IMG/VR virus record: IMGVR_UViG_3300018080_000170
Span: 1 to 64,000 of that record
Length of the DNA stretch: 64,000 nucleotides
Source of the DNA: a virus
Direction: 5' to 3' (one strand)
The translations under genes and the position numbers were made by a program. Below the pieces are notes generated by a model that was given only the letters and a program-made list of their open reading frames with translations, made no database searches and was not told the DNA's origin. Shown here in pieces: positions 2,851 through 32,761 of the stretch (the first letter of the stretch is position 1; each line of letters starts with the position of its first letter).

Positions 2851-4836
2851 ATGGGTAAAAAGGATCAAGACACCTTTAAATTTTACGTACCTGTTGAGCT
2901 CGCCAAAGGTGAGAGCGAAGATGAATGGCGCGTAAAAGGAATCGCTTCAACTGGGGATAGAGATTTACAAGGTGAAACGGTTAGCCAGTCCGGACTCGAT
3001 ATAAGTCCGCTGAAACAAGGGAAGGGACTTTTTAATAACGATCATCAAAAGGGTCCCGAAAACATTTTAGGTAAGATTGATTATGCCCAAAACACTATGA
3101 ATGGTTTGTATGTTGAGGGCTATCTTTTTAAACATCAGCCCCGGGCCCAGGCTTTCTTTAATATTATGCGTTCATTGAAGAAGGCGGATAAAAATAGAGT
3201 TCAAATGTCCATTGAAGGAAAGATTATTAAACGCAGTGATATTGATAAAAGTGTTATAGCGCGAGCGCGAGTAGAAAAAGTTGCTTTAACCCTTGATCCA
3301 GTTAATACCAGTACTTATGCAGAAATTGCTAAGTCATTGAGCGTTGAGAGGCTTGAAGTTGATGAGTGTGCTGACACCATTGAAGAAGTTGAGAAGTCCT
3401 CTGAGATGGATAACGTCGCCGAGGGCGATGTGGAGAAGATTCAAGCTGAAGGCGCAACTAAAGCAGATAAAATCCAAAGTGGCGAAAAGAAAAAAAAGAA
3501 AAAGGACGAAAAAGTAGAGCTTTCTACTTATGATGATAATCCAACCCTTGCTAAGTCGGAGGATGGCGAGCTATTAGGATATTCGGATAAGGATTCTTCC
3601 CTGGCTAGTCCTTCAGTGGCTAGTCAACCGGTTGAAGGGGATGTCGCCTCCTCCGCCCCTTCACCGGATACGGTTGAAAAAGGTGGGGTCGGTAGTGGTC
3701 GATATAAGCATAAAAGTAAAATTCATGCTAAAGTCCATCGTCATTTAAAAGGTACGGTGGGGCATGCCCCTCTCAATAATAGAGAATATCAAAGACGAGT
3801 GGCTCATGCTATGGGCGATGAATCTCCAACCAAAGTCTCTCAGGCAATTGCTCAAGATCTTATTGAAAGCGGTCATGTAGGTAGGGCTCCTAAGTCTGGC
3901 GGTGGAGCAGTTCATGTTGTATTAAATAAAAGTGAAACGGTTTTAGTTAAAGCGCATAAGTTGGAGATGTTGTTAAGTCTTGTTAAGGGCGGTCCCGGTT
4001 CTGGGAGAAAAAAGAAAGGCTCAAGAAATACCAAAAAAAAGAGCAAAAAAAGACTTGAAGATGCATTAAGCTTTCATCGTAAAAAAGTTGTACAAGCTCG
4101 CAAAGCAGGAAATCCTAGCGATATTCTTGCCCATCAACATGCGGTGGAAACATATAAAAGAATGCTTGGTAAGTCTGAATTAGTAGAAAAAGGTGGACCT
4201 GGTAGTGGCAGAAAACATGGTAAAGGAACATCAGGAGCGGCAATTCAGAGACGAGCGTTTGCTGATAGAGGTCCTGGAAGAATTTCCGGAGATAAGGGGA
4301 TTGCATTAAAGCTATTTCGTGAACAAAAGAAAAAGAATCCTAAGAAATATAACATAAGTGAGGCTGAGTTTAGTAGGCGTTGGGATAAGAAACATAGTAT
4401 GAAGAAGGCTCGCCCTAAAGGAGTTGGGTCTAGAGGCGGAAAAGTTGTTGGTTATACGCGCTCGGGTAAGCCTAAATATCAAAAGATTCTAAATGCTGCT
4501 CACAAGATGGAAGGTTCTTATGGGGCTTACAATCACGAGGCCAGAGGAACCCATAGCGGAAGACCGATTGTAACCGAGAGAGATAAAAAGCTTATTGATA
4601 AACTTCATAGCCACGGTCTTAGTGAACATGAGAAAGTTGTTTTTTATGATTCAAAGCGCGGTCGTCATGCAATGGACGATATGATGGGAGCCGGCCTCTA
4701 TACAGATGAAATGATCAAGTTATTTAAAGAAGATCTTAAGGACTGGGATCTTAATCACGAGCATAAAGCAAAACGCGCTACTAAGGAGTCGAGTGAAAAG
4801 GAACCAGAACCCAATAAGTATCTTGATACTCGATAA
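2851..4836 (+). CDS. Prohead protease with long modular Lys-rich C-terminal extension
   Basis: Residues 1-165 match the phage prohead serine protease family: DEWRVKGIAST, FNNDH with catalytic-type H65, GLYVEGYLF, and VQMSIEG with likely nucleophile S120. Such proteases cleave scaffold and capsid N-termini inside the prohead. The family is usually about 200 residues; this protein has 661. The extension contains an acidic linker, a poly-Lys stretch (213-218) and three boundaries, VEKGGVGSGR (275-284), LVKGGPGSGR (377-386) and VEKGGPGSGR (445-454), each starting a basic module. A GSRGGK...SGKPKY motif follows at 526-543. The modules may be processed into small internal head proteins (inference). 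The start follows TGGAGAAATA. Confidence 0.85.
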   Translation: MGKKDQDTFKFYVPVELAKGESEDEWRVKGIASTGDRDLQGETVSQSGLDISPLKQGKGLFNNDHQKGPENILGKIDYAQNTMNGLYVEGYLFKHQPRAQAFFNIMRSLKKADKNRVQMSIEGKIIKRSDIDKSVIARARVEKVALTLDPVNTSTYAEIAKSLSVERLEVDECADTIEEVEKSSEMDNVAEGDVEKIQAEGATKADKIQSGEKKKKKKDEKVELSTYDDNPTLAKSEDGELLGYSDKDSSLASPSVASQPVEGDVASSAPSPDTVEKGGVGSGRYKHKSKIHAKVHRHLKGTVGHAPLNNREYQRRVAHAMGDESPTKVSQAIAQDLIESGHVGRAPKSGGGAVHVVLNKSETVLVKAHKLEMLLSLVKGGPGSGRKKKGSRNTKKKSKKRLEDALSFHRKKVVQARKAGNPSDILAHQHAVETYKRMLGKSELVEKGGPGSGRKHGKGTSGAAIQRRAFADRGPGRISGDKGIALKLFREQKKKNPKKYNISEAEFSRRWDKKHSMKKARPKGVGSRGGKVVGYTRSGKPKYQKILNAAHKMEGSYGAYNHEARGTHSGRPIVTERDKKLIDKLHSHGLSEHEKVVFYDSKRGRHAMDDMMGAGLYTDEMIKLFKEDLKDWDLNHEHKAKRATKESSEKEPEPNKYLDTR

Positions 4837-4847
4837 AGGATTAAACA

Positions 4848-6083
4848 ATGGCAGATAAAGAAAAAGATAAACCGAAATCTAAATTGAAGTATGCCAAGCG
4901 AACCGGAACGCCTGGTAATTATGTTTACTGGCATGAGGATGAGAAGAAAGCGATGGTTCCAGGAGATCGTCCAAAAAATGTCGACGAGATTAATTCTAAA
5001 CCTCGTTACGAGCATCATCCTCACGACGAACGCGCCACCGATCAAGTAGGACATAAAAAGGCGGCTGAAGAGATGGGATCGGAGGAGTTGGAAGCTAAAC
5101 CAGAGAAGCCGAAAAAGCCATCCAAAAAAGAATCTGAAACAAAGATGATGGCGCTGAAGAAAAAGGGCCCTTCAATAGAAGATAGAGTAGCGGCCATTGA
5201 GAAAGAGCATGCTAAAATGGCAAAGAAGGACAAAAGCTTTATGGGAGAGAAAAACGCGGATAAAGAAAAGCTTTTGAAAGAGGGAAAGAAGGATCTTAAA
5301 AAGAAGTGCATGAAAAAGTCCGCTGACAATGGCGAAGACGAGTATGTAGAGATTGACAGAGAGAAGCTTGAGAAGATTCTTGATTTGGCAAGAAAACATC
5401 TTAGCAAGGGTGGACCCGGGTCTGGCAAGAAGAAAGGCGCTGGTCCAGTTGATTGGGATGAGAAGTTTAAAGAGCGCATGAGAGCTCGGAAAGAAGCTCG
5501 CAATCAGGCCGCTCTTGGTAAGATTTCAGGGAAAGTGAAAGAGAGAGAGGAAGCTGATAAAAAGTTTGCCGAGCGTATGAAAGAGCGCAAAGAAAAGCGA
5601 AATCAAGCTGCAGCCGGCAGGGTTAGAGAGGGGATGATGTCGGATAAGCAGCGAAAGCGCTTTGGACAGGTAGAGCAAGCCAATAAAGAAAAGAAACAGA
5701 GAATTCTTGCTCGCCTTCGATCGTCAGCTAAGGAGCAGATGAAAAAAGCCAGTGGCGAAGGTTCAAGAGGCGGAAAAATTATTGGTCGAACAAAGTCAGG
5801 AAAGCCGATTTATGACAAAGCCGACCATCCAGCTCATAAGAAATTTACTTCTCAGGATCATAGGGACGCTGCAGGGCTTCATCATGGTAAAGCTTCGTGG
5901 GCCGGAGCTGGTAGTTCTGAAGAGAATAAGACTAAAGCGAAGCATCATAGAGAGCAGCGCGAGAAGCATAAAGATATGGAAATGCCTCGACACACTCGCA
6001 ATCTTATAGAAGATAAGTATAAACAGAAATATCCAAAAAGAATTGTTCCTGAATTTGTTAAAAGGCCAAGAGAAACTTATTAA
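4848..6083 (+). CDS. Basic head-associated protein with KGGPGSGK and GSRGGK motifs
   Basis: This 411-residue, very Lys-rich and His-rich protein lies directly after the protease and shares two of its motifs: KGGPGSGK (187-194) and GSRGGKIIGRTKSGKPIY (305-322). Residues 20-28 (GTPGNYVYW) resemble a short motif seen in other phage head proteins. Residues 204-225 and 236-258 are an internal duplication (KF-x-ERM-x-x-RKE-x-RNQAA). Low complexity suggests an extended, perhaps DNA-binding, protein packed in the head or consumed during maturation. The stop overlaps the next start (TAATG). Function inferred from context. Confidence 0.7.
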   Translation: MADKEKDKPKSKLKYAKRTGTPGNYVYWHEDEKKAMVPGDRPKNVDEINSKPRYEHHPHDERATDQVGHKKAAEEMGSEELEAKPEKPKKPSKKESETKMMALKKKGPSIEDRVAAIEKEHAKMAKKDKSFMGEKNADKEKLLKEGKKDLKKKCMKKSADNGEDEYVEIDREKLEKILDLARKHLSKGGPGSGKKKGAGPVDWDEKFKERMRARKEARNQAALGKISGKVKEREEADKKFAERMKERKEKRNQAAAGRVREGMMSDKQRKRFGQVEQANKEKKQRILARLRSSAKEQMKKASGEGSRGGKIIGRTKSGKPIYDKADHPAHKKFTSQDHRDAAGLHHGKASWAGAGSSEENKTKAKHHREQREKHKDMEMPRHTRNLIEDKYKQKYPKRIVPEFVKRPRETY

Positions 6084-6928
6084 TGAAAATTGAAAAAGCA
6101 AAACTAGAACAACTTCTTAAGTTGCTTAAAAAAGCCCTCGCCATTGGTGCGGGCGATTCTAGTTATGCTAACACGTTGCCAGGGGACATGAGCGGGGCGG
6201 TTGCTAATACAACTGAGAGTCTTGCTGGTGGAAAGAAAAAGAAAAAGCGCAAACAGAAGCGTAAAGGTGAGGAGATTGAGAAGGCTGTTAATCAAGTAAT
6301 CGAAGAAGATAGCGAGTTGTTAGTAAGATTGGCAAAGGGAGAAAAGATCCCTGGTGGTAAGGCTGCTGGAAGGCCCGATAGTGACTTTGATTCAAAAGAG
6401 CTAGCTATGGGGATCAAAGTCGAAATGGAGCATACAAAGGATAAGGCAAAGGCTAAAGAGATCGCAAAAGATCATTTGGCAGAATTTGCTGATTATTACA
6501 CGCGCCTGAAGGCAATGGAAAAGAAGGCTGAAAAGGAAAAGAAAGAGGTTAAAAAGGCCGCCATCGTTGTCAAAGATCCTAAAGATAGGGATAGAGCATT
6601 TGAGATCGAGACGACTAAAGAAGGTAAGAAAAAACTTGTTCTACCTCGTCCTCAGGATGGAAAAGGCTCAATGCAAGGCGAACGCGGTAGGGGAATGGGG
6701 TCTGGTAAAGGAAAGAATAAGATTAAGGGATGTAAGCTTCTTAATGCAAATGATGATATATCAAGACAAAAGAGGAAGAAAATTTTTAAATCAATTTTAA
6801 AGGAGGTTAAAAATAGGTTCCCGGAAATGGATTATCAAACAATAGTTGATATTACCATGAAAAGATGGGAAAAGAGACTTCTAGAGGAAGATTCAGATAC
6901 GACGTCTGAGTCCGATAACAAACAATAA
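6083..6928 (+). CDS. DUF5661 protein with capsid-like N-terminal motif
   Basis: Residues about 95-155 (GIKVEMEHT...AKEIAKDHLAEFADYYTRL) match the DUF5661 family of unknown function, often found in phage head regions. Residues 28-47, YANTLPGDMSGAVANTTESL, match residues 34-53 of the major capsid protein with identical spacing. A KKKKKRKQKRK stretch follows. The C-terminus is helical and acidic. It lies between the basic head protein and the scaffold-like gene, so a head assembly role is likely. The shared motif may mark a protease site or a common docking segment (inference). Confidence 0.75.
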   Translation: MKIEKAKLEQLLKLLKKALAIGAGDSSYANTLPGDMSGAVANTTESLAGGKKKKKRKQKRKGEEIEKAVNQVIEEDSELLVRLAKGEKIPGGKAAGRPDSDFDSKELAMGIKVEMEHTKDKAKAKEIAKDHLAEFADYYTRLKAMEKKAEKEKKEVKKAAIVVKDPKDRDRAFEIETTKEGKKKLVLPRPQDGKGSMQGERGRGMGSGKGKNKIKGCKLLNANDDISRQKRKKIFKSILKEVKNRFPEMDYQTIVDITMKRWEKRLLEEDSDTTSESDNKQ

Positions 6929-6944
6929 AAGGAGAAAGGTGAAC

Positions 6945-7577
6945 ATGTCTGATCTTGAGAAGACCAAGCTTGAAGAGCAGGAAAAGGTCGAAGAGACTGT
7001 GACTGACGAAGAGCTTGAGAAATCCATCGATGATCTTATCGATGAGTACCTCGAGAGCGAAGAGAAGGCTGAGGCCGATTCCGCTGACGAAGAGACCGGC
7101 GAAGAGCAGGTTGAGAAGTCCGAGGAAGGAGCCGAGGAAGAGCCTGAAGAGACTCCTGAATCTATCGAAATCTCAGTTGAAGATCTCCAGTTGCTGAAAG
7201 CTGCAAAAGAGCAGAAGGCAAAGGAAGAGTCAGCTAAGAAGGAAGAGGAATTCAAGAAATCAATTCAGGACATCGTTCAAGAGGAAATCAAAGATCTCCG
7301 AGAAGCAGTCAGTGAGCTGACTAAAGCCCTTCGTGCACCCAAGTCTAGCCGCCAGTCGGTTAGTAAGGTGAACGAGGTTAAGAAGTCATTTCATACGGCT
7401 GCTGAGAACGAAGGGACAAAGAAGATTTCTAAGTCCCAGGTTCTTGACACAATGGAAGAGCTTTGGAAGGCCGGAAAAATTTCCGGTGCCTCACTAAGTG
7501 GTTATGAAGCAACCTCTCAGATTCTTGATCCCAAGGATCGCGAAGTTGTTGAAAATGCAATCAGAGAGTCAAAGTAA
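6945..7577 (+). CDS. Acidic coiled-coil scaffold-like protein
   Basis: A 210-residue, strongly acidic, helical protein just upstream of the major capsid gene, the usual place of a capsid scaffold. Residues 1-90 are mostly Glu with VEKS and LEKS motifs; a coiled coil (about 80-130) and a folded C-terminal helical part follow. ATG 6945 is about ten bases from AAAGGAG; a GTG at 6939 is a less likely start. It would direct shell assembly and then be degraded by the prohead protease. No sequence family recognised; the call rests on composition and position. Confidence 0.65.
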   Translation: MSDLEKTKLEEQEKVEETVTDEELEKSIDDLIDEYLESEEKAEADSADEETGEEQVEKSEEGAEEEPEETPESIEISVEDLQLLKAAKEQKAKEESAKKEEEFKKSIQDIVQEEIKDLREAVSELTKALRAPKSSRQSVSKVNEVKKSFHTAAENEGTKKISKSQVLDTMEELWKAGKISGASLSGYEATSQILDPKDREVVENAIRESK

Positions 7578-7591
7578 GGGAGTATTAATCA

Positions 7592-9058
7592 ATGGCAAAT
7601 AACAACCCTTCTTCGTTGACTGGTTTTGGAGCCGATGCTCCCCAGCTTCTCGAAGAGATCACCAAAGCGTTAAGCTTTGCGAATCAAAATTATTCGGATA
7701 CGTTGCCGGGTGATTTTACAGGTGCTCCCGCTCTTCAGGTTGAATCACTCGACAAGACTCTGAGAGTGGTTACCCATGAGCAAAAGCATCTGCTTCTTTG
7801 GAATGATATTCCGAAGACTCCTGCATACAACACGGTTGAGCAGGCCAATACGAATAACAGTTATGGCGCACAGATTCCAGCCTTCTTTCAGATGGCAGGA
7901 GCTCCAGAAACTGCGGATTCTGGCTACGATCGAAATGTGGTGCAGATTAAGTACTTGGGCGTTCAGAAACAGATCAATCATGACGTTATGCTGGTTAGGC
8001 AAGCTCATGGTCCGATCGTTCAAAGAGAGATCAAAAATGGAGCTCTCTGGATTCTGGCACAGCTCGAGCGCGCTCTCTTTTCAGCCGACAGTTCCATCAA
8101 TGGCCTAGAGTTTGATGGTATTGATAAACAGGTTGAGGATAAAGAGGGTCAGGCTGAGTTTAAAGCTCAGGCCTTTGATGGCTACAATGTGCTGAGTGGC
8201 GCAGATACCATCATTCTCGATAAGCGAAATGATCTCCAGAGTGGAGAGGTTTTGGATGAGGAAATCCTCGAAGAGGCCGCTCTCGTTCAGGCGAACAATT
8301 TCGGTATGTGCACGGATATGTACATGGATACGAAAGCTCACAGTGACTTCAGCCGTGCTTTCTATGCTAAGGAGCGCATCAATACGCTCGGTATGGAAGG
8401 AAAAGCTGGTTATGTTGTGAAGCAGTTCGTTTCCGGTTCCGGCACTTTTAATCTTAAGTCTGGTGTGTTCCAGCGACCTCGCCGAATCCCGTTGGCGGCA
8501 GCTGTTTCATCTGAATCAGCTCCTACCCTTCAGGACGCGAATGCTGGTGACAATAGCCCGGCTTCTGGCGATTCTCAGTTTGCGGCCGTTGACGCTGGTC
8601 AGTACCAGTATAAGGCTTCTGCTGTTTATGCTGATGGTGAAACGTTGGCAGGCGGCGCGAAGGCTGTTACTCCGGCAGCTGGCGACAAAGTCGTGCTAGA
8701 TATTCTGCCAGGTTCGAACCCCAGTGGCGTTCAGTATTTCAATATCTTTCGTTCACCAAAAGGTAGCGCGGCTACTTTTGAGTTTATCGGTCGTGTGAAA
8801 CCTGAGAATTTCCACGCTGGTGATGGTGATTTTCGTGATCTGGATATTGATCTTAACGCTGATATGCCAGGTTTGTCTCGCGCTTATCTCATGCAGATGA
8901 ACGAAGACAACCTTGCGTTCAAACAGCTTCTTACTATGATGAAGATCGATCTTGCATTGCTTGGTACGAACTATCGATGGATGCAGCTGCTTTATGGTGC
9001 GCTTCATATGTATACACCTCGCAAGAATTGTATCGTGAAGAACATCGGGCGTTCATAA
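7592..9058 (+). CDS. Major capsid protein (HK97-like fold)
   Basis: A 488-residue protein of the expected size, position and style for a myovirus major capsid protein; it forms the head shell. The N-terminal region (1-60) holds YSDTLPGDFTGAPALQVESL at 34-53, shared with the DUF5661 protein. The core includes a long helix, PIVQREIKNGALWILAQLERALF, typical of the spine helix. Residues about 305-425 look like an inserted Ig or fibronectin-type domain (YQYKASAVYADGE, VQYFNIFRS) that probably projects from the surface. Codon choice is more regular than in flanking small genes, fitting high expression. A strong terminator follows. Confidence 0.85.
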   Translation: MANNNPSSLTGFGADAPQLLEEITKALSFANQNYSDTLPGDFTGAPALQVESLDKTLRVVTHEQKHLLLWNDIPKTPAYNTVEQANTNNSYGAQIPAFFQMAGAPETADSGYDRNVVQIKYLGVQKQINHDVMLVRQAHGPIVQREIKNGALWILAQLERALFSADSSINGLEFDGIDKQVEDKEGQAEFKAQAFDGYNVLSGADTIILDKRNDLQSGEVLDEEILEEAALVQANNFGMCTDMYMDTKAHSDFSRAFYAKERINTLGMEGKAGYVVKQFVSGSGTFNLKSGVFQRPRRIPLAAAVSSESAPTLQDANAGDNSPASGDSQFAAVDAGQYQYKASAVYADGETLAGGAKAVTPAAGDKVVLDILPGSNPSGVQYFNIFRSPKGSAATFEFIGRVKPENFHAGDGDFRDLDIDLNADMPGLSRAYLMQMNEDNLAFKQLLTMMKIDLALLGTNYRWMQLLYGALHMYTPRKNCIVKNIGRS

Positions 9059-30352: not shown

Positions 30353-31166
30353 ACACTTTACATCAAGAACTGAAGCATTAATTACGCCAGCCGTTTTAAA
30401 GAGAAGGTATCTTCATGGCGTTAATACCAAAGACGATAACGGGAAAGAGCTATCAAATCAGACTCTTTCTGAGTATATTAATAATGCAGTTGGTTGGCTA
30501 GAGGAAGAATTAGATATCCCTATTCGACCTCTCGTATTTTCAGAAGCCAATGGAAACCAGGAGCTCCACGATTATCGTCATACAGATACTTTCTGGAATT
30601 GGAATTTTATTAGGCTCGATGTTTATCCGGTTATCTCGGTTGAGTCTGTTAAGGTTATGTTCCCAACTGACGAAGAGCTGATCGAATATCCTTCTGGATG
30701 GTTTAGACTTGAACAAGATACAGGTATTCTTAGACTCGTTCCCGATAGTGGATCAGTCCCTGCCGTTCTTACTCATTCGGGGGTTTTGATTCCTCACCTA
30801 GCTCTTCAAAGGAGATTAATTCCGCAGATGTTACAAATTGAGTACACTGCAGGATTTGAGCTTGATAGAATTCCTGTTCTGTTAAACAATATTATTGGAC
30901 TGAAAGCTGCAATTGATGTTCTCAATATTGCTGGTGATTTAATCACGGGAGCAGGAATTGCATCACAGTCAATCGGATTGGATGGATTGAGTCAAAGTAT
31001 TGCTACTACGTCGTCAGCGACTAACGCCGGATACGGTGCTCGTATTATTCAGTATGAGAGTCAGTTGTTTGGTGGCGGCGGAGCCGGCTTTGGTGGAAGT
31101 AAGAAGCCAGGGCTGTTACAAAAAGCGAAAGAAAATTACAAAGGAATTAGGATAGACGTGATCTAA
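30342..31166 (+). CDS. Head-tail connector (adaptor) protein
   Basis: 274 residues, mostly helical, with LSEYINNAVGWLEEELDIPI and RLDVYPVISVESVKVMFPT, typical of gp6-like connector proteins that bind the portal and seal the head. Position just before neck and tail genes supports this. The C-terminus is Gly-rich (GGGGAGFGGSKKPG). The start lies inside the previous gene. Confidence 0.65.
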   Translation: MSNRHFTSRTEALITPAVLKRRYLHGVNTKDDNGKELSNQTLSEYINNAVGWLEEELDIPIRPLVFSEANGNQELHDYRHTDTFWNWNFIRLDVYPVISVESVKVMFPTDEELIEYPSGWFRLEQDTGILRLVPDSGSVPAVLTHSGVLIPHLALQRRLIPQMLQIEYTAGFELDRIPVLLNNIIGLKAAIDVLNIAGDLITGAGIASQSIGLDGLSQSIATTSSATNAGYGARIIQYESQLFGGGGAGFGGSKKPGLLQKAKENYKGIRIDVI

Positions 31167-32761
31167 TGCCATTTGTTCCACATGAAACATCAACTTCGGT
31201 TACTGATATAAGCTCACATACTTTATCTGAGATGTCAATCCCAGAGAAGTATAAGTTTTATGTGTGGCTGAAGACAAGAGGGATGAAGGTAAACGACTTT
31301 AAGGAAGTTTCGTTGCCTTCTGGAGTTTTAAGTTTAAGAAAAGATGATGACGGAGTATATAGCGGAAATTTTATTAAAAGTGAGGTAAGTGATACCGGTG
31401 AAATTCCGCTAAAGTTTGACAAAAAGACTCTTCCTGAGATTGTTAAAATGCTCGAGGTTAAAGAGTATATTGAGCCTGCATCGGTTGCTTCTCTTCCAGA
31501 GTTAGAAGAAAAGGCTGAGGAGGTCGAGCGACCTGTTGAACCTGAACAAGAAAGTATTTCGGTCCCGTCATCAAAGGGAGATATTAACATTACAATTAAT
31601 GTTCATAAAAGTAAGGGAGCGATTATGAATCGTAATAATGAAAAGGGTAGGAAGTCGTTAGTTAAGGATCTTTATGAAGAGCTGAAGAAATCCGGCCACA
31701 CTGTTAAAGAGATCAAAAGCGCTTCTAATATCAGTGAACTAATTAGCAAATTGCCTGAAGATAGACGGGAAACCTTTGAAAAGAGACTAAAGAACCAGAA
31801 AACCGTCAAGAAAAGCTTCTCGCACTATCAAAAAGAGTATAGTCTTCCCGAGAATCTTGATTCTGATGAGAAGATTAAGAAAGGCAAGAAGGCTTTTAGG
31901 CGCATGATTAAGGATTTCTGTAAGTCTGAAAAGAAAGAGCAGGCCAGTCGTCGTGCTTTTTCTATTTTGAAGAGCAAATATGGTCTTGAAGGAATGAAGC
32001 AGCTCAAGAAGTCTTTCAAAGATACAAATAATTCTTGGAAAGAAACTCTTGGAGATCTGTTTCCAGAAACTTTTGCTCTTTTGAAAGTTAAGACCAACCA
32101 GCTTGATGAGACGATGCCCGGGATCAATAAAAGTGGCGCTCCCGTTGATCCTAAGCATTTTTACAAAGCAAGCGAAAATGCCGGTCTTTATAGGATTCCG
32201 ATGTATGAGGTTGATCGTGAAGGAGCCGATAAGGCTTATCAAGAGGAAGTTAAAAAGGCTGACGATAAAGCTAAAACTGACTTTATTAATAGCACAAAGA
32301 ATATGAATGTTGAGCCAATTGAGAAATCTGATTTAAGTGCTAGCCCAAATACAAGTGATGAATTGAGTGTTGATGGAAGTGGCGAGAATGAGAAGCTGAA
32401 AGATAATAATCCTGGAACGCAGGATTCTTTTCCGTCTCAAACGCCAAAGATGGATCCTGATGGTAGTCATCACATGGATGATGCCAGAGGGGGTAATGAT
32501 GAAATACAGCAGTTTGCCGCACGCGTTAATGCTATGATGCAATCTTCCACTCAAACTAAACCAGATATTACTCCTGAGCGTTCAGAGAATGGTGAAGCTG
32601 GGAATGGCGGAACAGATGAGATTCAGCAAAAAACTGCTCCGAGTCCTTCTCCCGATGCCGAGACCTCAAGTGAACAAAGTAAAATTGAGCACGATGGAAG
32701 CGGCGGAATGGGCCGAGATGGTAAGGCTGGCGCAATGGATAAGCCAAAAGAAAGATCATAA
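31166..32761 (+). CDS. Large charged structural protein, 531 residues
   Basis: Residues 1-95 look folded. A Glu/Pro-rich linker ends at GDINITINVHKSKGA, and a Lys-rich helical region (150-330) contains repeated K-S motifs (VKKSFS, FCKSEK, LKKSFK, INKSG, IEKSD). Residues 380-531 are a Ser/Asp/Gly-rich disordered tail with two D-E-I-Q-Q motifs. A second ribosome binding site (AAGGGAG) and ATG at 31624 could yield a shorter product. The position among neck genes and motifs shared with head proteins suggest a virion or head-maturation role. Function unknown. Confidence 0.6.
   Translation: MPFVPHETSTSVTDISSHTLSEMSIPEKYKFYVWLKTRGMKVNDFKEVSLPSGVLSLRKDDDGVYSGNFIKSEVSDTGEIPLKFDKKTLPEIVKMLEVKEYIEPASVASLPELEEKAEEVERPVEPEQESISVPSSKGDINITINVHKSKGAIMNRNNEKGRKSLVKDLYEELKKSGHTVKEIKSASNISELISKLPEDRRETFEKRLKNQKTVKKSFSHYQKEYSLPENLDSDEKIKKGKKAFRRMIKDFCKSEKKEQASRRAFSILKSKYGLEGMKQLKKSFKDTNNSWKETLGDLFPETFALLKVKTNQLDETMPGINKSGAPVDPKHFYKASENAGLYRIPMYEVDREGADKAYQEEVKKADDKAKTDFINSTKNMNVEPIEKSDLSASPNTSDELSVDGSGENEKLKDNNPGTQDSFPSQTPKMDPDGSHHMDDARGGNDEIQQFAARVNAMMQSSTQTKPDITPERSENGEAGNGGTDEIQQKTAPSPSPDAETSSEQSKIEHDGSGGMGRDGKAGAMDKPKERS

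Follow-up and report, generated by a model that had tools for sequence, protein, structure and literature searches.

The KGGxGSGR repeats in the head-gene region of this uncultivated phage are probably cleavage sites of the form [VILM]xK↓GGxGSGR (↓, predicted cut), at which the prohead protease would expose a conserved N-terminal tag, and the long extension of the protease would then be a self-encoded polyprotein. Sequence comparison shows a phage-specific cleavage rule, modules that are bounded by the motif and a head-gene context; from these we infer cleavage (in cis or in trans), targeting, presence in the virion, DNA binding and a role for the tag. The first-pass annotation had read the extension as a possible self-processed polyprotein, and comparison strongly supports the motifs as processing boundaries for the protease on the same chain, through the cleavage rule of the family, the covariation of P1 and the module boundaries. 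Its reading of KGGxGSGR as one site divides in two: [VILM]-x-K fits as the site, whereas GGxGSGR appears to be a separate conserved N-terminal tag.

The window comprises bases 1-64000 of a virus record of 70,393 b, and its features are listed in Table 1. A scan of the whole record recovered the copies that had been described, three in the 661-aa protease ORF and a fourth in the next ORF: KGGVGSGR at aa 277 (nt 3679-3702), KGGPGSGR at aa 379 (nt 3985-4008) and aa 447 (nt 4189-4212), and KGGPGSGK at aa 187 of ORF 4848-6083 (nt 5406-5429). There is no KGGxGSG beyond these four in the 70,393 b, and the backwards control pattern had zero matches there. Synonymous codons vary among the four copies (AAA GGT GGG.., AAG GGC GGT.., AAA GGT GGA.. 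and AAG GGT GGA..), so the motif is conserved at the level of protein.

Table 1. Features of the window, with predicted boundaries and cuts (↓).
Feature	Coordinates (nt)	Strand	Basis or remark
Protease ORF, SPO1-type prohead protease with ~500-aa C-terminal extension	2851-4836	+	661 aa
Protease domain, aa 1-161, invariant His65 and Ser120	2851-3333	+	Family alignment, AlphaFold2, Foldseek
Predicted self-cleavage site AEIAK161↓SLSV, end of protease domain	3319-3345	+	[VILMF]xK↓[STA], K in 69/70
Acidic disordered spacer, aa 162-277, net -15	3334-3681	+	pLDDT <50
Boundary 1, VEK277↓GGVGSGR	3673-3702	+	Motif; L005 homology breaks 3 codons upstream (after SAPSP)
Module 1, aa 278-379, basic	3682-3987	+	Unrelated modules in its place in L005
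Boundary 2, LSLVK379↓GGPGSGR, behind amphipathic helix	3976-4008	+	Motif, predicted structure
Module 2, aa 380-447, net +14, predicted helical	3988-4191	+	Charge count, model
Boundary 3, ELVEK447↓GGPGSGR	4180-4212	+	Motif
Module 3, aa 448-524, net +17	4192-4422	+	Homologue in L005
Module 4, begins GSRGGKVVGYTRSGKPKY, second widespread boundary module, near neutral	4423-4833	+	
411-aa basic ORF carrying the fourth motif	4848-6083	+	No Pfam or PHROG family
Boundary 4, HLSK187↓GGPGSGK	5397-5429	+	L005 DNA identity ends at K-G codons
Boundary of GSRGGK type, QMKK300↓ASGEGSRGGK	5736-5775	+	
281-aa ORF, start (LLKK↓ALAIGAGDSSYANTLPGDMSGAVANTTESL) mimics own capsid N-arm	6083-6928	+	Local alignment
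Acidic scaffold-like ORF, 9 rule sites	6939-7577	+	1.4 expected, 0/300 shuffles
Major capsid protein (MCP)	7592-9058	+	phrog_752, E 1e-66
Predicted MCP maturation site EEITK25↓ALSF	7664-7666	+	K25 invariant in 83/83 aligned MCPs
531-aa ORF, 12 [VILMF]xK[GAST] sites	31166-32761	+	3.5 expected, 0/300 shuffles

In a profile search phrog_1028 (head maturation protease) matched aa 3-162 of the protease ORF (E 1.4e-35), and the ~500 aa C-terminal of the domain matched no accepted family. Among unique family proteases the catalytic H65 is kept in 67 of 70 relatives, the other three having gaps there, and S120 in 70/70. AlphaFold2 gives pLDDT >90 over most of aa 30-160 and predicts disorder after aa 162 (pLDDT <50 from residue 163); a two-sequence model of the full ORF (mean pLDDT 39) is usable for secondary structure only. 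In Foldseek the domain matches herpesvirus assemblins best among PDB entries, at prob 1.00 and E down to 2e-5 but with a TM of only 0.3-0.4. The enzyme is an SPO1-type protease, with the herpes-assemblin fold in the model. We found the protease in 75 of 80 relatives collected via the capsid protein. These proteases are mostly 260-280 aa long, with a single scaffold gene between protease and capsid genes, and the long extension of the 661-aa protease is unusual among them. The window keeps the gene order protease, scaffold, MCP, with two extra ORFs in between. The protease ORFs of L097, L098 and L123 carry an intein-like insertion (CFPGD...VVHN before CPVN) near a conserved motif.

The cleavage rule of the family can be read from deposited capsid chains. 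The MCP of phage 812, a homologue of that of the window phage, is in the PDB both full-length (463 aa) and mature (439 aa, alignment offset 24), and because the mature chain lacks 24 residues, the cut lies at VVK↓SF. Mature HK97 capsid chains in the PDB begin at S104 (TFNK↓SLG), and the two phages together give Lys as P1 and a hydrophobic residue as P3. Lys occupies the MCP cut position in 83/83 aligned SPO1-type MCPs, that of the window phage included, and 60 unique MCP sites have L55/I3/V1/M1 at P3 and A58/S1/T1 at P1'. The same pattern, [VILMF]-x-K↓[STA], stands directly behind the protease domain, with Lys in 69/70 unique family proteases, and in the window phage this K161 site coincides with the end of order in the AlphaFold model.

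Scaffold proteins are dense in such sites: those of 63 relatives hold 359 [VILMF]xK[AST][VILMF] sites vs 21.8 in shuffles, and neither the Arg nor the polar-P3 control pattern is enriched in them. [VILMF]xKGG also occurs there 20 times vs 2.2 expected. About 80% of [VILMF]xK occurrences are followed by S, G or A, hence a P1' Gly is nothing unusual in this system. At P2' the motif has G, where capsid and self-cleavage sites nearly all have L/F/M; this is not prohibitive, because about 40% of scaffold sites also have no hydrophobic P2'.

When the window proteins were scanned for rule-site enrichment, the scaffold-like ORF 6939-7577 ranked first and ORF 31166-32761 second, which on sequence grounds makes the latter a candidate for another prohead-protease substrate. 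The protease ORF was also in the top three (13 [VILMF]xK[GAST] sites vs 5.6 expected, a number reached in 1/300 shuffles). In L016 (3-7333), several adjoining large ORFs made of SPSASISLSPS-type repeats lie beside head genes.

In most relatives the protease tail also contains a copy of that part of the phage's own capsid N-arm which surrounds the cut (e.g. SPO1 LDKSLEAGYEVDPEKMEGGDVFRKESLD). This mimic spans 30-40 aa, cut site included, in the protease tails of L061, L064-L138, SPO1 (L010) and A9 (L011). Of 81 comparisons with a tail or ORF, 53 scored above every one of 100 shuffles. The window phage has it outside the protease tail, in the separate ORF 6083-6928 (nt 6083-6265), where local alignment to its own MCP arm scores 70 (shuffle mean 23.9, max 44). 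By its sequence the mimic may target or regulate the protease, or act as a pseudosubstrate element.

The modules had been described as small and basic, which is right for three stretches, with net charges of +10 over 102 aa, +14 over 68 and +17 over 77 (+0.21 per residue in module 2 and +0.22 in module 3), and wrong for the spacer before the first motif (-15 over 116 aa) and for the last 137 aa (+5). Pfam gave no accepted match in the extension or in ORF 4848-6083, and tblastn of module 3, a motif-rich peptide and the GSRGGK module against isolate phages gave no useful match or close homologue.

The closest comparison is with relative L005, whose protease domain is 92% identical to that of the window phage. 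L005 keeps the protease and spacer as far as SAPSP, beyond which its modules differ; the one KGGPGSGR in L005 stands at the start of a module 3 homologue (EKGGPGSGRK), C-terminal and behind different modules. In ORF 4848-6083 the helix EKILDLARKHLSKG is kept in L005, which reads NKGCTPKEKRC after the K-G codons, the start of an unrelated CTPKEKRC module. By these alignments, modules have been exchanged between the two phages at motif boundaries. A second module type, GSRGGK..SGKPIY, also stands behind [VILMF]xK↓[GAS], with K[AGS] in 31/32 cases and P3 in VILMF in 26/31. ORF 4848-6083 itself opens with KYAKRTGTPGNYVYWHE (4848-4935), a module that in L065 and L084 also opens proteins encoded upstream of the capsid gene.

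We compared the motif across phages, as the first-pass annotation had proposed, and the preceding residue proved phage-specific and P3 hydrophobic. Viral contigs and genomes gave 37 unique KGGxGSG sites, of which 78% have a hydrophobic P3 vs a background of 24%, and P2 and P4 are at or near background. This first scan fixed Lys at P1 and so was biased; we repeated it with P1 free. Of 96 unique GGPGSG[R/S]K sites, 37 directly follow the start Met, 18 follow Lys, 10 Glu, 6 Asp and 6 Ala. Within contigs P1 agreed in 40 of 50 pairs vs 16.9 expected (0/1000 permutations; 15 contigs with at least two non-Met copies), and such agreement is weak at P2-P4 and absent at P5-P8. Some copying between sites is likely, because P2-P4 are slightly concordant, and simple duplication as the cause of the P1 concordance is ruled out by the P5-P8 control.

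The rest of the proteome follows the same residue. With the motif masked, proteins are enriched for [VILMF]-x-X-[GAS] where X is the P1 residue of the phage concerned (z 6.7 for K, 7.1 for E, 2.8 for A, 2.9 for D and 3.5 for N, the A, D and N types resting on few contigs). Label permutation gave 0/5000, and did so again when masking was loosened and when P1' was restricted to A/S. The own P1 residue was not the most enriched of the five in 15-17 of 36 contigs. Certain P1 residues (among them G, F, R and P) match none of the types, and part of these sites look like chance matches in GC-rich contigs. A scan of genome_contigs returned 27 matches, with the motif in a retained open frame in only four, which look like chance or non-phage matches. 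Two isolate relatives of E-type phages are without the motif.

In the 113.7-kb phage G013, about 20 large proteins are divided by 35 sites, with K at P1 in 35/35, V24/I5/L4/F2 at P3 (35/35 [VILF]) and P2, P4 and P5 free. Several of its proteins begin with leaders of 12-22 aa ending K↓GGxGSGR; a search for its head protease identified none. Recognisable parts of these G013 proteins (L025, L028, L279-L282) include an acetyltransferase, pentapeptide repeats and DUF3626, and the set looks like a large store of virion-delivered proteins.

P1 also goes with the type of head protease. In the Glu-type contig L220, the gene after the motif ORF encodes a Peptidase_S77 (T4 gp21 family, E 4e-29) and the portal is T4-like, and in L207, likewise Glu-type, the MCP is gp23-like; T4 gp21 cuts after L/I-x-E (PMC9026906). 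The Lys-type contigs L013, L015 and L026 carry Peptidase_S78, that of L026 just under the family cut-off, and Lys-type motif genes sit among portal, terminase, protease and capsid genes.

The motif is not specific to the protease ORF. Where the tag follows the start Met, the tagged genes have strong Shine-Dalgarno sequences and stand beside portal and terminase genes, and the contigs carry an SPP1-type portal (phrog_64) in 5/5 tested. No S77, S78 or SPO1-type protease was found in the start-Met records tested, an absence that is weak because many of these contigs are fragments. The start-Met MGGPGSGRK proteins (n=39) have a median length of 66 aa and a net charge of +0.22 per residue, and these short basic proteins resemble modules 2 and 3. 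Contigs L203, L216, L229, L189, L194 and L233 hold families of unrelated short basic ORFs, several per contig and close to portal and terminase, that have only the start MGGPGSGRKKGS in common.

We propose that the protease cleaves after Lys, with a hydrophobic P3 and a small P1' ([VILMF]-x-K↓[S/A/G]). It would cut itself loose at K161, cut the scaffold at many places and remove the capsid N-arm before A26. Cuts at VEK↓GGVGSGR, LVK↓GGPGSGR, VEK↓GGPGSGR and LSK↓GGPGSGK would separate exchangeable, mostly basic modules, and every released module would begin with the GGxGSGR tag. Other phages would reach the same free end via other proteases (P1 Glu, Ala or Asn) or with genes that open directly on MGGPGSGR. 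The short helices ahead of K probably act like the capsid targeting sequences (CTS) of T4, carrying the modules into the prohead and then being removed. Since trypsin also cuts after Lys, tryptic ends would be identical to the ends left by Lys-P1 cleavage. A wider proposal, on which we are evenly divided, is that virion-internal or injected proteins of phages with unrelated head proteases have GGxGSGR as their common N-terminal tag, that P1 belongs to the phage's own protease or is the start Met, and that the exposed tag has a conserved job in packaging, DNA attachment or tail passage.

The same extension could be an uncut, large and disordered head protein in which the glycine-rich motif is a flexible joint between shuffled modules and hydrophobic-x-Lys is the end of a helix. 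The position of the motifs between predicted helices (at low model confidence), the exchange of modules among relatives and the departure of P2' from the capsid rule all suit a joint, yet it would leave unexplained why Lys, or else Glu, Ala or Asn, precedes GG in step with site enrichment and protease type, and why in other phages the tag stands behind a start Met; we regard it as unlikely. We think it considerably less probable again that the protease site is a coincidence and that GGPGSGRK serves as a small arm contacting DNA, as do the glycine/arginine starts of some DNA-binding proteins. In favour of such an arm are the short, very basic standalone MGGPGSGRK proteins, some of which we take to resemble terminase small subunits or HNH proteins. 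Against it, the constraints on P1 and P3 would be left unexplained, and in G013 the residue after the tag is mostly H, Y or T, not a basic one. A DNA-contacting role of the tag itself may be real and compatible with cleavage. That the repeats are recombination seams, islands of DNA homology for module swaps with no role in the protein, is the least credible reading, rejected by the synonymous codon differences at many positions among the four copies and further opposed by the conservation of the motif as protein across unrelated phages, in frame and at specific positions, even though window/L005 homology breaks at or beside the motif.

Several known systems offer parallels. The herpesvirus assemblin precursor is a protease fused to scaffold, and shares with the window protease the fold (by Foldseek), a release site right behind the protease domain and fused downstream cargo; it differs in that the window phage fuses exchangeable basic modules, has its scaffold in a separate gene and shows Lys specificity. 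In T4 the CTS and the internal proteins cut by gp21 (IPI-III, Alt) likewise place a short leader before a protease site ahead of basic internal proteins, under a hydrophobic-x-P1 rule (L/I-x-E in T4). The short helices of the window phage end LVK, LSK and VEK in CTS fashion, but lie inside the chain, and G013 has N-terminal leaders of the T4 kind. P1, by contrast, is Lys in the window phage, Glu being found only in T4-type tag carriers, and the window phage strings several modules on one chain, that of the protease included, with a conserved tag after the cut.

As in phiKZ and SPN3US, one protease (there gp245 and its relatives) would mature multiple head proteins; gp245 removes its own C-terminal propeptide of 64 residues (PMC10052503). 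The phiKZ-type enzymes differ in cutting after S/A-x-E, mostly to remove N-terminal propeptides, and no common GGxGSGR tag is reported for them. SPO1 gp3.2 and the Herelleviridae head protease belong to the same phrog_1028 family, with the order protease-scaffold-MCP, but the SPO1 protease has 256 aa and lacks both the module extension and the two extra ORFs. Polyvalent phage proteins (Iyer et al. 2017, PMC5512222) are multi-domain, and their processing, believed to precede or follow delivery, is ascribed mainly to fused metallopeptidase domains; the window modules, unlike these, match no effector, LPD or MPTase domains, and the candidate processor is the prohead protease.

Head-protein processing, targeting leaders and self-release of head proteases are already known (PMC9026906, PMC10052503). 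In the phage literature searched as full text, with few subscription papers, no paper contains GGPGSG, and neither GGxGSGR as a common post-cleavage tag nor a P1 that follows protease type is reported.

Self-cleavage of T4 gp21 has been called a major gap (PMC9026906), and the invariant site behind the SPO1-type protease domain, together with the capsid-arm mimic in the tail, offers a direct test case for it. If the proposal is true, the residue preceding the tag would make the specificities and substrates of head-maturation proteases in uncultivated phages readable from sequence, the tag would flag packaged, probably injected phage proteins, and several virion proteins would be deliverable as one chain, even on the protease itself.
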